Shown one piece after another: positions 26,547 through 32,303 of a DNA stretch of 41,813 bases. The notes beneath the pieces are model-generated. The model was not told where the DNA came from. It saw nothing but the letters and a program-made list of their open reading frames with translations, and ran no database searches. A program made the position numbers and the translations under genes. The DNA is taken from the NCBI GenBank assembly GCA_937949915.1, contig CALECP010000053.1, forward strand, positions 1-41,813, in the 5' to 3' direction. The stretch's first letter is position 1; each line of letters begins with the position of its first letter. The stretch comes from an uncultured Anaerolineae bacterium. Lineage in GTDB: Bacteria; Chloroflexota; Anaerolineae; Promineifilales; Promineifilaceae.

Positions 26547-27512
26547 ATGAACAAATATGGTCACTATCACGTCACGAATACATTGAAAAAAGAGTTAAGA
26601 AAAGGGCAGGTTCAGCTTGCCATTATCGGTACAGCTATTGCCTTGAGCATCATGGCTATTTTCCCGCCACCCACATACGCATCAGAAGGATGTGAAAAAG
26701 AAATTGTCATTCCAACGGTGCCGCAAATATGGGCACACAAAACCGTTCACTTGATCAACCTTGAGCGGCGCAAAGTTGGCGTTCCGCCTCTAAAAGTAGC
26801 AGACGAACTTGTTGCGGCCGCACGCTATCATTTGCAAGATATGCTCGATGATGATTATTACCATACTTCATCGCACGACCGGATCGATGGTGAGTTAGTA
26901 GAGGTCTGTCAACGGCATGAGCGTATCGGACTGTTTTATCCTGATTACACCTATACGGACGAGATTTTGAATGAGGGATTGTATTCGTATCCATTTGAGA
27001 AATTTGTTGTGCAATCATGGATTGACTATGATTTCACAAGAGGGCGTATGCTTGAGCCTGCGTATTGGGAGGCGGGCGTGGCTTATAATTATGGTGATCG
27101 CATTATGCAAACATGGGTTGCCAACTTTGGGCAACGGCCGAATGTTTACCCGATCATCATCAATGATGAGGCAGAAACAACCGATATAGATGATATAGCT
27201 ATTTATCTATACGGTGATTGGCAAGAGGTGCGTTTCCAAATCAATGAAGGTGCATGGAGTGAGTGGATGCCATTCGAGAATGAGATGTACCAAACATTGT
27301 CTGATGGAGCTGGGGAAATGATGGTAACGGCCGAAATGCGAACGGACACACTTTCTACCACCAGCAGCGATACAATCATGCGTGATCCCGATCCAACGGC
27401 CGTGCAGACTACAACAATTAGCATCTCTCTGAACATGCCTATGTGGCTGTTTTTTACGGCCGTTTTAACGTTACTTACAATGCGCCAGGTTACGCGCCGA
27501 CCTGTTAGCTAA
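26547..27512 (+). CDS. CAP-domain (SCP-like) surface protein 1
   Basis: The 321-residue protein has an N-terminal hydrophobic signal (about 24-45, ending PPPTYASEGC), a CAP domain (about 60-205, HLINLERRKVGVPPLKVADE, AARYHLQDMLDDDYYHTSSHD, TWVANFGQRPNVYPII), a beta domain (about 210-265, WQEVRFQINEGAWSEWMPFE), and a C-terminal membrane helix (MWLFFTAVLTLLTM) with basic tail. CAP proteins occur in many extracellular settings; the enzymatic role in bacteria is not settled. GGGAGCG precedes the ATG. It is the first of two tandem paralogues (second at 27752) and lacks the repeat stalk of the second. Confidence 0.82.
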   Translation: MNKYGHYHVTNTLKKELRKGQVQLAIIGTAIALSIMAIFPPPTYASEGCEKEIVIPTVPQIWAHKTVHLINLERRKVGVPPLKVADELVAAARYHLQDMLDDDYYHTSSHDRIDGELVEVCQRHERIGLFYPDYTYTDEILNEGLYSYPFEKFVVQSWIDYDFTRGRMLEPAYWEAGVAYNYGDRIMQTWVANFGQRPNVYPIIINDEAETTDIDDIAIYLYGDWQEVRFQINEGAWSEWMPFENEMYQTLSDGAGEMMVTAEMRTDTLSTTSSDTIMRDPDPTAVQTTTISISLNMPMWLFFTAVLTLLTMRQVTRRPVS

Positions 27513-27565: not shown

Positions 27566-27751
27566 CAACACAGGTTCGCCTGACCAGAGTACTAATTATG
27601 ACATAGATCACATCATCATTGATAAACAGTAGACTGCACATATTCTTGAAATCTATTACGCTACTAGTGGAATTGAGTGTTGTTACAGATGGCACAGACA
27701 GAAGATATTAGTAGAGAAGTTTTGTATTTAAGTAATTGGAGCAGTATCGTA

Positions 27752-29032
27752 ATGATTAACGATGATCGCTATTCACATATCAAAAACAACCTAAACATCT
27801 ATAAAGTACATGGGTTTCATATTATCATTATCAGCTTGGTGTTTGTATTAAGTATCATGGCTGTTTTCCCACCATCAGCACATGCGCTAGAAGGGTGCGA
27901 GAGAGAAGTTGTCATTCCAACAATAGCTCAAACATTGGCGCATAACGCTGTTTATCGCATCAACCTTGAGCGGCGCAAAGTGGGTGTCCCCCCTCTAAAA
28001 GTTGCCAATGAACTAACCCTATCGGCACGCTACCATCTACAAGATATGATGGACGATGATTACTACCATACTTCATCATACGACCGGGTCGATGGCGAAT
28101 TGGTAAAAGTGTGTGAGAGGCACGAGCGCATCGGTCTGTTTTATCCTGATTACACTTATACAGATGAGATATTGAATGAAGGTTATTACACTTATCCATT
28201 CGATGCCTTTGTTGTTCAATCGTGGTTAAATTACGCGCCTACCTCGGAGCGTATGCTCCATCCTGCCTATTGGGAGGTTGGTGTAGCATACATTTATGGT
28301 GAGAGCGTTATGCAAACATGGGTCGCCAACTTCGGACAACGGCCGGAAGTCTATCCTATCATCATCAATGATGAAGCAGAGAGAACTGATTCGCATGAAG
28401 TATCTGTATACATATACGGGGATTTTAGCGAGGTGCGCTTCCGTAACGATAGCGACGCTTGGTCTGAATGGATGCCATTTAGCAATGAGATGGACATTTT
28501 GATCAATGGGACACCAGGCGAGCATTTGTTACGGGCCGAAATGCGTGATGAAGATGGCAACATATTCGCTAGTAGCGACAAAATCGAGTACACAGGCGAA
28601 GTGGTTGCGCCAACAGCAACCCCACTGGTGACAAACACGCCTGTCCCAACAAACACGCCCGTCCCGACAAACACACCTGCCCCAACAAACACGCCTGCCC
28701 CAACAAACACACCCGTCCCAACAAACACGCCTGTCCCAACAAACACACCCGCTCCGACAAACACACCTGTCCCGACAATTCCAGCAGTTGTCTCTATAGA
28801 GATTACTTTTGATTTGCCATCTACGAACACGCCCGAACCGACACCAGAGGGCACATCTGAAGGTTTAGATGCCCCCGACAATAACATCCCTCTCAACATA
28901 TCGCTTGTGCAAGGGAAAGCGATACAGCAAACTATCTCGACGACACCACTCTTGGTGGTTATATTGATGCTGACAGTGGTATCCACAATGGTTGTCACAT
29001 CAACCAAAATGCGCTATTTGCCGATACGTTAA
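27752..29032 (+). CDS. CAP-domain surface protein 2 with Thr/Pro repeat stalk
   Basis: The 426-residue paralogue of 26547-27512 keeps the signal (VFVLSIMAVFPPSAHALEGC), CAP domain (YRINLERRKVGVPPLKVANE, YHTSSYDR, TWVANFGQRPEVYPII) and beta domain (FSEVRFRNDSDAWSEWMPF). It then adds eight tandem TNTPVP/TNTPAP units and a longer linker before the C-terminal membrane helix (LLVVILMLTVVSTMVV). The stalk resembles extended Thr/Pro cell-wall spacers, often glycosylated. ATG 27752 is chosen because the bases before it (GGAGC then TATCGTA) match the region before the first paralogue's start. The frame is open further upstream to 27677. Confidence 0.82.
   Translation: MINDDRYSHIKNNLNIYKVHGFHIIIISLVFVLSIMAVFPPSAHALEGCEREVVIPTIAQTLAHNAVYRINLERRKVGVPPLKVANELTLSARYHLQDMMDDDYYHTSSYDRVDGELVKVCERHERIGLFYPDYTYTDEILNEGYYTYPFDAFVVQSWLNYAPTSERMLHPAYWEVGVAYIYGESVMQTWVANFGQRPEVYPIIINDEAERTDSHEVSVYIYGDFSEVRFRNDSDAWSEWMPFSNEMDILINGTPGEHLLRAEMRDEDGNIFASSDKIEYTGEVVAPTATPLVTNTPVPTNTPVPTNTPAPTNTPAPTNTPVPTNTPVPTNTPAPTNTPVPTIPAVVSIEITFDLPSTNTPEPTPEGTSEGLDAPDNNIPLNISLVQGKAIQQTISTTPLLVVILMLTVVSTMVVTSTKMRYLPIR
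28631..28774 (+). repeat. Eight 18-bp tandem repeats coding the TNTP[VA]P stalk
   Basis: Units of 18 bp (ACAAACACGCCTGTCCCA and variants) run head to tail eight times. They differ mainly at third codon positions plus the Val/Ala switch, so the array is old enough to have drifted but keeps its frame. Copy number may vary between strains. Confidence 0.92.
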
Positions 29033-29111: not shown

Positions 29112-29993
29112 TCACAATACAGTGATAGATGGTGGCGCAACCCAATACAACAACAAGCCAACCATATAAAGTCCGGCCGCCAGCACAATCCAGATAGTCA
29201 TCCAGCGCGGCCGGGGGGTACTGTGCCGCAAGCGATGCCACATAATAGGCAAGCAAACCACACCAAATGGCACAAAGGCAAGCGGAATCACCTCTGCAAA
29301 TGTAAAAAATGTGAATGCACACACCAAGCCAATCGTCGTCAGACGCAATAGCCACACGGCCGTATTCAAACCAAACATGACCGTAAAGTTGCGCTCCTGC
29401 AAGCGATCAATCGCATAATCACCAATTTGGTTCTCTAATTGCGAAGAAAGCGAAGCAAGCGTTGTACACACAATAATCGCACCATCGACAGGCATCCATT
29501 TACCATCAAGCAAAAACAACACCATCAAGTAAGGAAACGTTTCTACAAAAGTCGCATGTGTGATCAAATCTATGATCGGCCGGTTTTTCAGGCGTAATGG
29601 CGGCGCAGAATAGGCCCAAGCGATCAACAAACACACCGCCAGCACCAAAAACCCCCTCAGACCAAACTGCAAAAACGCAGGGGTGACAAGCAACGTCAGA
29701 AAAGCACTCCACAGCGCGATCTTTTTGCCAGTCACCTGCCGTTGCACAAAAAAGCTACGCGACCCTTTCTCATTGTCTTGGGCATCAAAAGGCGCATCGT
29801 AATAATCGTTGAGCGCAAAGGCAGCCCAGTATCCGAGGGTGATCGCCGCCAGCAAGTAAAGCGTTGCAGTCGATAGCCCATCATGCACCAGCAAAGCCAA
29901 GCCAGCACTGATCATCGCCACAACCCACGCATCCACATGATTGAAGACAAGTGTCATGTTTTGAGTAAATTTGTGTCTCATAAAGTAATTCAT
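29112..29993 (-). CDS. UbiA-family prenyltransferase
   Basis: The 293-residue integral membrane protein has about eight to nine hydrophobic helices and both Asp-rich motifs of UbiA enzymes: NDYYDAPFD (62-70) and the second, GDYAIDRLQER (about 190). It transfers a prenyl chain to an acceptor; possible products include quinones, chlorophyll-type or lipid intermediates, and the acceptor cannot be deduced from the neighbours. ATG 29993 is preferred; ATG 29981 is possible and the frame is open to 30041. It is divergent from the GT39 gene with a repeat-bearing spacer in between. Confidence 0.82.
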   Translation of the reverse strand: MNYFMRHKFTQNMTLVFNHVDAWVVAMISAGLALLVHDGLSTATLYLLAAITLGYWAAFALNDYYDAPFDAQDNEKGSRSFFVQRQVTGKKIALWSAFLTLLVTPAFLQFGLRGFLVLAVCLLIAWAYSAPPLRLKNRPIIDLITHATFVETFPYLMVLFLLDGKWMPVDGAIIVCTTLASLSSQLENQIGDYAIDRLQERNFTVMFGLNTAVWLLRLTTIGLVCAFTFFTFAEVIPLAFVPFGVVCLPIMWHRLRHSTPRPRWMTIWIVLAAGLYMVGLLLYWVAPPSITVL

Positions 29994-30065
29994 TGCCGTG
30001 ATTTTACCGTGTATGCTCAATTGATTCGATTTTGCGTCCATCTGTCTACTTGCTTTACGGTTTTT

Positions 30066-30216
30066 CAGTTATGCAGTTATTCAGTTTGTCAGTATATCAG
30101 TCGGCCGCACACAGCTTATCTTGCCCGTTTAACGGCCTTATCGCCGCAAATAGACGTGACCAAACACTGTTTGGGTGTAAAAAGTCAAACTGACAGACTG
30201 ATTTACTGAAACACTG
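30066..30216. repeat. Inverted 8-bp-periodic CAGT...ACTG element
   Basis: CAGT occurs at 30066, 30074, 30082, 30090 and 30098, five copies at exactly 8-bp steps. Its reverse complement ACTG occurs at 30189, 30197, 30205 and 30213, four copies at exactly 8-bp steps. The core between the arms begins with CGGCCGCACACAGCTTATC, which is shared with 2452-2470. It fills most of the 288-bp spacer between the divergent ubiA-like and GT39 genes, where I see nothing else. Confidence 0.75.
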
Positions 30217-30281
30217 ACAAACCATGCTACTTGTTTGCCCAATACACCATCCTTTGTACACTTACATCTAGCGAGGTTATT

Positions 30282-32303
30282 TTGGACGAATTAGAAGAAT
30301 TAGAAGACGCATCAACCGATCACAATAGGGTCAAAAACCCGTATGCACTACTCAAATTGGTTGTGCTACTGTTGCTTGTCGGCGGTGGAACATATTTGCT
30401 GGCACAGGCAAACCAAGTACGGCCGACACAGATCGCGCCCTGGGGGGCGTTAGGGGTAGCGGCCATTGGCACGGCCGCCTTGTTCGTCCGTCTACGTGCA
30501 GGTGCCACGGCCGAAAATGCACCTGCATGGCTGCAAAAAGCGATTTCGATCATCGCCAACAATTGGCGCATCGTCCTCTTTATCATTGCCCAATGGAGCA
30601 TCATCTACGTGCTGTGGCGCATTCCCCAGCTAGACCCCCGCGCAGACGACTACACCCCGCTCGTTCCATTTTGGATCGGCGCATTCTTGCTTTTTTTGTG
30701 GGCGGTGTGGGGAAAAAGCAGCGTTGCAGACACGGCCGCGCCCATCACCCGCCAAACATGGTGGCTCATCGGTGGCATCGTCGCGGCCGCCTTTCTCTTG
30801 CGCGTCTGGCAGCTAGGGACGATCCCGTTCACCTTTTCCGGTGACGAAGCAGAGCAAGGGCTCGAAGCGTTGCGCGTGATCAACGGCCAAACGCGCAACC
30901 CCTTTCACACCGGCTGGCTGGGTGTCCCTTCGCTCAGTTTTTATTTTAATAGCCTCAGCGTGCGTGCGTTCGGCCGTACCGTTTTCGGCTTGCGCTTTCC
31001 CTGGGCAATCGTCGGTAGCCTCACCGTTTTGCTCACCTTTCTGTGGGTGCGCCGCCTCCAAAACAACACACTCGCGCTCATCGCGGCCGCGCTTGTCGCC
31101 GCCTATCATTACCACATCCACTTCTCGCGCCTCGGCTCAAACCAAATCGCCGACCCCTTTTTCCTCGCGCTGTCGCTATGGCTGCTTTACCGCGCCCTCC
31201 AGCGACAAAACAAGCTCGATTGGGCATTGACAGGGGGCGCGATGGGCATCGCCTTCTACTTCTACGCTGGAGCGCGACTGACCCCCGTCGTCGTCATCGC
31301 CACCATTGCCTATCTCTTCATCTGTCAGCCCCGCGCCTTCCGTCGTCAGCATGGGTTTGGCGTTCTCGTCATGATCGCGGGCTTTTTGTTCGTCGCGGCC
31401 CCCATGCTGCAATACGCTTGGCTCAATCCGGGCGAATTTAATGCGCGGCTCAATCAAGTCGGCATTTTCCAAAGTGGCTGGTATGACGGTGTGCGAGAAA
31501 GCGGCCGGACACCGCTCCAAATTTTCAGCAAACAGTTCGCCGAAGCCGCACTCGCATTCAATTACTACCCGGACAAAACGATCTGGTACGGTCTCAAAGA
31601 ACCGTTGCTCACACCGTTGTATGGCATTCTCTTTTTAATCGGGCTGCTCTATGCGACCGTGCAAGTTTTCCGGTTCAAATCATACGCGCTGGCCGCCCCC
31701 GTCGCATGGTGGTGGGGGGGCATGTTGTCGGCCGGGTTTCTCACCGTAGACCCGCCCAACAGCCAACGACTGATCACATTAGCCATCCCTGTCTGCATTT
31801 TTATCGCGCTCATGTTGCACAAGGTGATCACATTGCTACAAACGGGGTTGACCGATACGAAAATGTTGCGGCGAGGGTTCTTGGTCGCGGCCGTCGGTCT
31901 GTTTGCGTTTTCCAGTGTGCGCCTCTACTTTGTCGAATTTTCACCACAACGCATTTCGGGCGGCGGCCGCGCTCTCTTTGCGACAGAAATAGCGACCCCG
32001 CTCAATCAATTGGTGCCAACCTACAAAGCGTATTTTGTGGGCGCACCCTGGATGTATTGGGGATTTGGCACAACAAAATATCTGGTGGGAGAAGAGTATG
32101 GTATCGACATGGGCATCGACCCCGTATCGGCCGACTTATTTGATCAACTGGTCGATCCAGCACAACCGGCCGTATTTGTCGTCTTGGGCGAACGCATCAA
32201 TGAGTTGGAGACGATTATGGCAGCGTATCCGAATGGGCATAAACAAGAAATACGCGCGGCCGACGGCCGTCTGTATGGCGTGATCTACGCAGAAAACCGA
32301 TGA
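30282..32303 (+). CDS. GT39-type membrane glycosyltransferase
   Basis: The 673-residue protein has a short acidic N-terminus (LDELEELEDAST) followed by about 12-13 membrane helices. The motif FSGDEAEQGLEALRVINGQ has the Asp-Glu pair of the first extracytoplasmic loop in PMT/ArnT-type enzymes, and PFHTGWLGVPSLSFY is typical of the RgtA-like group. Such enzymes use polyprenyl-phosphate sugars on the outer face of the membrane. TTG 30282 with GAGG at 30273-30276 is the best start; another TTG at 30231 has no ribosome binding site. Its stop overlaps the queE ATG as ATGA, so the two are cotranscribed. Confidence 0.82.
   Translation: MDELEELEDASTDHNRVKNPYALLKLVVLLLLVGGGTYLLAQANQVRPTQIAPWGALGVAAIGTAALFVRLRAGATAENAPAWLQKAISIIANNWRIVLFIIAQWSIIYVLWRIPQLDPRADDYTPLVPFWIGAFLLFLWAVWGKSSVADTAAPITRQTWWLIGGIVAAAFLLRVWQLGTIPFTFSGDEAEQGLEALRVINGQTRNPFHTGWLGVPSLSFYFNSLSVRAFGRTVFGLRFPWAIVGSLTVLLTFLWVRRLQNNTLALIAAALVAAYHYHIHFSRLGSNQIADPFFLALSLWLLYRALQRQNKLDWALTGGAMGIAFYFYAGARLTPVVVIATIAYLFICQPRAFRRQHGFGVLVMIAGFLFVAAPMLQYAWLNPGEFNARLNQVGIFQSGWYDGVRESGRTPLQIFSKQFAEAALAFNYYPDKTIWYGLKEPLLTPLYGILFLIGLLYATVQVFRFKSYALAAPVAWWWGGMLSAGFLTVDPPNSQRLITLAIPVCIFIALMLHKVITLLQTGLTDTKMLRRGFLVAAVGLFAFSSVRLYFVEFSPQRISGGGRALFATEIATPLNQLVPTYKAYFVGAPWMYWGFGTTKYLVGEEYGIDMGIDPVSADLFDQLVDPAQPAVFVVLGERINELETIMAAYPNGHKQEIRAADGRLYGVIYAENR

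Follow-up and report, generated by a model that had tools for sequence, protein, structure and literature searches.

The window analysed here, i.e. the whole stretch of 41,813 nucleotides from an uncultured Anaerolineae bacterium (contig CALECP010000053.1), harbors a short non-coding element upstream of two divergent genes, one for a UbiA-type prenyltransferase and the other for a PMT_2-type glycosyltransferase. The element is 171 bp in length, contains no gene of its own and is bounded by two facing arrays of a short word, repeated at an 8-bp pitch. The features are arranged as follows.

29112–30041, minus strand: neighbour gene, UbiA-type prenyltransferase (Pfam PF01040, E 9e-17), reading away from the element
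30046–30055, no strand: left target-site duplication CTACTTGCTT, matching CTACTTGTTT at 30227–30236 with 1 mismatch
30056–30226, no strand: whole element, probably mobile, a copy of a family of ca. 165 bp, with similar DNA copies elsewhere in the genome and boundaries taken from the flanking direct repeats
30057–30065, plus strand: left terminal sequence ACGGTTTTT, from the alignment of copies (family consensus CAGGGTTTTT / CACGGTTTTT)
30065–30101, plus strand: left octad array (A end), TCAGT tat GCAGT tat TCAGT ttg TCAGT ata TCAGT
30102–30188, no strand: 87-bp core, starting CGGCCGCA, common to the family copies and without a gene of its own
30189–30217, minus strand: right octad array (B end), ACTGA cag ACTGA ttt ACTGA aac ACTGA
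30218–30226, minus strand: right terminal sequence CAAACCATG, from the alignment of copies (consensus AAAAACCGTG)
30227–30236, no strand: right target-site duplication CTACTTGTTT, pairing with the left CTACTTGCTT
30282–32303, plus strand: neighbour gene, PMT_2-type glycosyltransferase (Pfam PF13231, E 1.2e-15), reading away from the element

The original prediction described five CAGT and four ACTG at strict 8-bp steps around a core of about 87 bp, and all of these positions are confirmed: CAGT starts at 30066, 30074, 30082, 30090 and 30098, and ACTG at 30189, 30197, 30205 and 30213, with the core measuring exactly 87 bp. When the window was resampled 300 times under a first-order Markov model, the longest run of CAGT or ACTG in 8-bp phase comprised 3 units and occurred once, against the 5 + 4 of the real window. 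It was further proposed that half of the 8-mer is conserved; a fixed word does alternate with variable bases, but the word is TCAGT/ACTGA, of 5 rather than 4 bp, leaving 3 variable bases. A single unit of the left array reads GCAGT instead of TCAGT. The termini of the copy, ACGGTTTTT/AAACCATG, lie outside both arrays, and each flank carries CTACTTG[C/T]TT. The copy contains neither a sigma-70 promoter nor a terminator, and Rfam 15 returned no match to a curated structured RNA in the window. Elsewhere in the window, 26547–27512 and 27677–29032 encode two adjoining, similar secreted proteins, the latter with a Pfam CAP domain match and a TNTPxP repeat tract.

A search of the home genome (G000; 4.11 Mb, 425 contigs) for further copies, as the original prediction had suggested, yielded 56 matches to (CAGTNNNN)3CAGT, i.e. 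four phased CAGT, and ca. 45 stretches alignable with the window copy at 71–91% identity. The alignable stretches define a non-coding family of ca. 165 bp with the consensus CAGGGTTTTTCAGTtatTCAGTttcTCAGTataTCAGTCGGCCGCA...core...TCAAACTGAcatACTGAtttACTGAaacACTGAAAAACCGTG, most copies harboring terminal inverted repeats (GGTTTTTCAGT / ACTGAAAAACC) in addition to the octads. The spacers of the family are fixed and specific to each end (tat, ttg/ttc and ata at the A end; gtt, aaa and atg at the B end, read inward), despite which both ends carry the same TCAGT word in the same phase. For 11 copies retrieved by BLAST only, without use of the array pattern, identity to the consensus was 0.889 in the units, 0.763 in the spacers and 0.856 in the core. 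The good retention of the units supports a mobile element; spacers less conserved than the core are not required by simple end recognition, which counts against one. Other elements of the home genome combine the same arrays with very different or absent cores (L016, L031, L035, C92), and core-deleted forms are also present (L026, L028). A second palindromic repeat, GTAGGGACACG...CGTGTCCCTAC, occurs within element copies or truncates them (L030 about 3200; L032:1-40; L069 about 3090).

Alignment of the copies located both ends and target duplications. Exact direct repeats of 8–11 bp were found outside the ends in 6 of 34 two-ended home copies (score of 8 or more), with 0.3 expected from mispaired flanks, rising to 9 of 34 at a score of 7, with 1.3 expected. 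These repeats, exemplified by CGGTATGTGC, TCAATTTAGT, TGTGTGAGGGG and CGGATATTT, border the terminal GGTTTT...AAAACC, in most cases at the same distance of a few bases. The element is hence multi-copy and non-coding, possesses terminal inverted repeats and duplicates 8–11 bp of its target on insertion; because it is multi-copy with flanking direct repeats above expectation, the window element probably is, or was, mobile and MITE-like, even though the remaining 28 of the 34 copies have no clean duplication. The neighbourhood of the window copy is not conserved in the relatives searched, four of which possess the UbiA gene.

The perfect TCAGT-only pattern occurs in relatives, outside the home genome, only as plain repeats. 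If the last base is allowed to be Y (TCAGY), 14 of 59 relatives show phased arrays, some of which are plain tandem repeats. The same-genus genome G001 contains a distinct family of its own that shares the end code (as TCAGC), TCAGCattTCAGCctgTCAGCattTCAGC-AAAGAAAAAGCAGGGCTGCC...GCTGAactGCTGAgtaGCTGActgGCTGAgtaGCT (L241, L245), and a core-deleted form in the shape of a short hairpin (L249). Elements of other genomes whose cores are unrelated thus have ends in one octad code, and at least two genomes contain core-deleted forms that are short hairpins. Copies at home and the code in relatives exclude the outcome that the original prediction had named as speaking against it, namely no other copies in the genome and no conservation in relatives.

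A facing-array pattern (loop of 3–30 bp, with the reversed pattern as control) matched 11 of 396 class members, the reversed pattern giving zero matches in 10 of these 11. Counting matches, of which one hairpin may contribute more than one, G338 contains 41, G015 22 and G328 12, with up to 63 per genome overall. In a scan of genomes, the matches listed include Acidobacteriota (gp13, Thermoanaerobaculia, Terriglobia), Bacteroidales, Planctomycetota, Berkelbacteria and many Chloroflexota, and the reversed pattern was absent from all 16 carriers counted. The Bacteroidales carriers are rumen Bacteroidales. Octad hairpins are also situated on three IMG/VR contigs (L219:5492, 5933, 7732; L221:4784, 6607, 7041; L220:1650), some adjoining structural genes; genes for a prohead protease and an SU10-type adaptor assign one contig, with three hairpins, to a tailed phage. 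In the hairpins of other genomes, direct repeats flank 4 of 83, with 0.6 expected, two of the four being A-rich. One hairpin (L184:3607) faces a clean empty site in a relative (L117:2066), ATTA being duplicated.

In a set of 84 hairpins, arms mostly comprise 3–5 units and loops mostly 2–30 nt, while the number of units across arrays ranges from 3 to about 21. Neighbouring TCAGY are separated by 8 bp in 604 cases, by 7 bp in 30 and by 9 bp once. The outer edge of the hairpins is AGY (A 74%, G 77%, Y 87%), with nothing conserved further out. TCAGY/RCTGA is the top pentamer at 8-bp phase in the loci, even with known hairpins masked, and in home-genome loci TCAGY is the only strong one; its constancy across phyla is partly ascertained, because pattern-based retrieval favours intact TCAGY. 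Where species pairs share flanks at 77–94% identity, the spacers and the number of units differ, but TCAGT is largely retained. Spacers in Bacteroidales follow TRD, with TAG/TAA on one arm opposite TGT/TAT on the other in a dialect-like manner, and opposed spacers there match below chance (N2 0.37 vs. 0.53, N3 0.16 vs. 0.35, SD about 0.06, i.e. ca. 3 SD). Other groups show no clear departure from chance.

Two uses of the arms were offered by the original prediction, pairing in RNA or single-stranded DNA by 4-bp steps and in-register binding of a protein. The arms of the window copy can pair (RNA z = −4.65, a good fold; DNA z = −2.68), the steps being of 5 bp rather than 4. An explanation in terms of REP/BIME-like RNA hairpins, in which the transcript would fold and protect or process the 3′ end of the upstream message, with the periodic internal loops being recognised, draws on this fold and on the favoured mismatches between opposed spacers in Bacteroidales, which a helix designed with bulges would require. 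It also draws on placement. None of the 84 hairpins lies inside an ORF of 200 aa or more; they start a few bases past stop codons, usually at 25 bp or less, and often within operons, as between groES and groEL in G011 (L098 about 1501–1567, genes named by eye from translation), a proximity which random transposition does not predict. An octad hairpin directly upstream of dnaK was observed in G001 (L240 about 544–610, gene likewise named by eye from translation).

Against such a role, the genes on either side of the window copy are divergent and the copy is upstream of both; moreover, TCAGY is constant across many phyla, whereas a word conserved for its pairing would be expected to drift, although the scan itself required TCAGY. 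Furthermore, the 27 two-ended home copies contain 3 unit positions at which both arms are mutated, with about 2.9 expected under independence, so that arm pairing is not being repaired in the home family and compensatory changes are lacking. The hairpins do resemble the REP/BIME/REPIN palindromes associated with RAYT (TnpA-REP) in being extragenic, in reaching tens of copies per genome and in lying just past stop codons and in operon gaps. Most REPs are marked by a GTAG/CGTC tag (PMC3733652). The octad hairpins have no such tag at the foot of the palindrome and end in AGY...RCT, and they differ further in their multi-octad arms, in the target duplications of the long form and in having no Y1 transposase as a discriminating companion. 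An RNA-level function is accordingly considered rather improbable. With TCAGY fixed, spacers varying, opposed Bacteroidales spacers anti-matching and no compensation, the sequences favour a protein which would read phased double-stranded sites over hairpin pairing; of the two uses first proposed, the protein fits better and pairing does not look like a conserved property.

A protein reader need not be a transposase. The arrays could be portable operator or centromere-like sites, with TCAGY recognised at each 8-bp step by a regulator of the RHH or a similar type, dispersal having created a regulon or nucleoid-organising set with mobility as a secondary matter. The met-boxes of MetJ are of 8 bp. 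A precedent is provided by plasmid pSM19035, where Omega/ParB (RHH) reads parS as an array of conserved cores in 7-bp phase, of either orientation and flanked by free bases, over at least 4 contiguous heptads (PMC9499535). Octads, parS heptads and met-boxes have in common direct or inverted arrays of a short core at a 7–8 bp pitch with several contiguous units, and the octad arrays show the conserved core, the 7–8 bp pitch and the run of at least 3–4 contiguous units typical of RHH-type arrays. However, parS and met-boxes are single regulatory or partition loci, whereas the octad arrays are dispersed element ends.

The retention of units while spacers drift would suit an operator, as would the position of the long home family, of which 17 copies lie in divergent, 13 in codirectional and 2 in convergent regions (p = 0.0075 against intergenic bases), a bias that is modest, was tested once and is not significant against convergent bases alone (p = 0.12). 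The hairpins of other genomes, in contrast, avoid divergent regions (51 codirectional, 17 convergent, 8 divergent). The window copy has no promoter-like site, and no linked regulator gene was found next to hairpins among the neighbourhoods compared. An operator function is regarded as unlikely.

Two further proposals dispense with a reader of the full word. In the first, the arrays are octamer microsatellites grown by replication slippage inside palindromes. Unit number does vary, some runs are long and plain repeats are present in G044 and G149; yet slippage copies all 8 bases, whereas here 5 are constant and 3 variable, the phase is common to both arms and to copies with different spacers, target duplications are present and the reversed pattern is zero in the carriers counted. 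This proposal was already disfavoured and has very little probability. The runs in G149 (L100/L144) and G044 (L074) are long, near-perfect tandem repeats of TCAGTGGG and TCAGCAAA, some mixing 7- and 8-bp steps, and are possibly slippage-grown versions of octad arrays. In the second proposal, the element is a six-frame stop cassette insulating genes from read-through. Three RCTGA units at an 8-bp pitch (8 mod 3 = 2) place TGA in three frames per strand, most arms have 3–5 units and the hairpins lie at gene ends, but a cassette needs only TGA and not TCAGY, and the spacers and G/C preference are left unexplained. The stops are more likely a by-product, and insulation as the purpose of the element is scarcely credible.

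The protein and the parent element were sought in several ways. No autonomous copy was found in the flanks examined around hairpins or among carriers of PF13808 (the ISAs1 transposase), although the home assembly, in 425 contigs, may lack a multi-copy IS, and no gene is common to the hairpin neighbourhoods of different genomes, the large clusters being widespread gene types with no common transposase; both results count against a mobile element. Y1_Tnp is present in 21 of 22 genomes, whether or not they carry hairpins, and hence does not discriminate hairpin carriers. In Bacteroidales, a single gene (purC by eye) separates one Y1 gene (L229) from a hairpin, which is probably chance. ISAs1, suggested by CAGGG termini, was rejected, PF13808 being absent from G000, G015, G011, G338 and all six other-phyla carriers tested. 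Both transposase results count against a mobile element. Literature searches with the repeat words or for phased-octad ends returned no relevant paper, which is weak evidence since open-licence papers only were covered, and targeted searches returned MITE and REP papers, none matching the phased-octad pattern.

Among known repeats, bacterial MITEs (RUP, Correia/NEMIS, ERIC and similar) are likewise small and non-coding, with terminal inverted repeats, direct-repeat flanks and tens of intergenic copies. The octad elements differ in that their ends repeat a 5-bp word every 8 bp with free spacers in between, in that one code encloses unrelated cores in several phyla, and in that no parent IS was found in the flanks or in PF13808 carriers. 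The STRR repeats of cyanobacteria are short tandem intergenic units of period 7, in which the whole unit is repeated. They share with the octads the short tandem units in intergenic DNA, but differ in the period, the repetition of the whole unit and the absence of facing arrays. The octad elements are apparently undescribed, as a variant of the MITE/REP-like kind.

On balance, the feature is probably a non-autonomous, MITE-like mobile element, with TCAGT/TCAGC arrays at an 8-bp pitch, separated by 3 free bases and facing each other across a core. The predicted reader acts in trans and is probably a DDE-type transposase or a protein that binds DNA together with one; it would read TCAGY as double-stranded DNA, binding co-operatively every 8 bp and synapsing the two facing arrays. 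Each step along B-DNA would correspond to about three quarters of a helical turn, comparable to the way RHH proteins track the 7-bp heptads of parS. The link from the arrays to a specific transposase is an inference. Such a reader would account for the constancy and phasing of TCAGY against variable spacers, cores and unit numbers, as well as for the occurrence of one code in distant phyla. That one word is retained at a constant helical step in unrelated phyla, whereas its surroundings change, points to a widely shared protein reading phased sites, not yet linked to the elements. More tentatively, all of these may form one superfamily of mobile elements across several phyla and phages, defined by the TCAGY octad end code with unmatched spacers, rather than by any core or gene, and read by a putative class of co-operative DNA-binding protein for transposition. 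If confirmed, the octad pattern would provide a sequence test for a class of small mobile elements that probably escape similarity searches, each genome having cores and spacers of its own, and would raise the question of what carries octad elements between phyla.

In G015:C36:82920-83143 and C72:29226-29441, one arm comprises up to about 21 octads with TCAGC unbroken throughout; one arm has TAG/TGG/GGG spacers and its counterpart ATT/CAG. At L184:4758, an octad hairpin lies 3′ of a Bacteroidales gene where the relative, at L117:3100, has an ordinary-looking terminator hairpin (GTTGGGATGCGCATCGCGCATCCCAAC followed by a T run).
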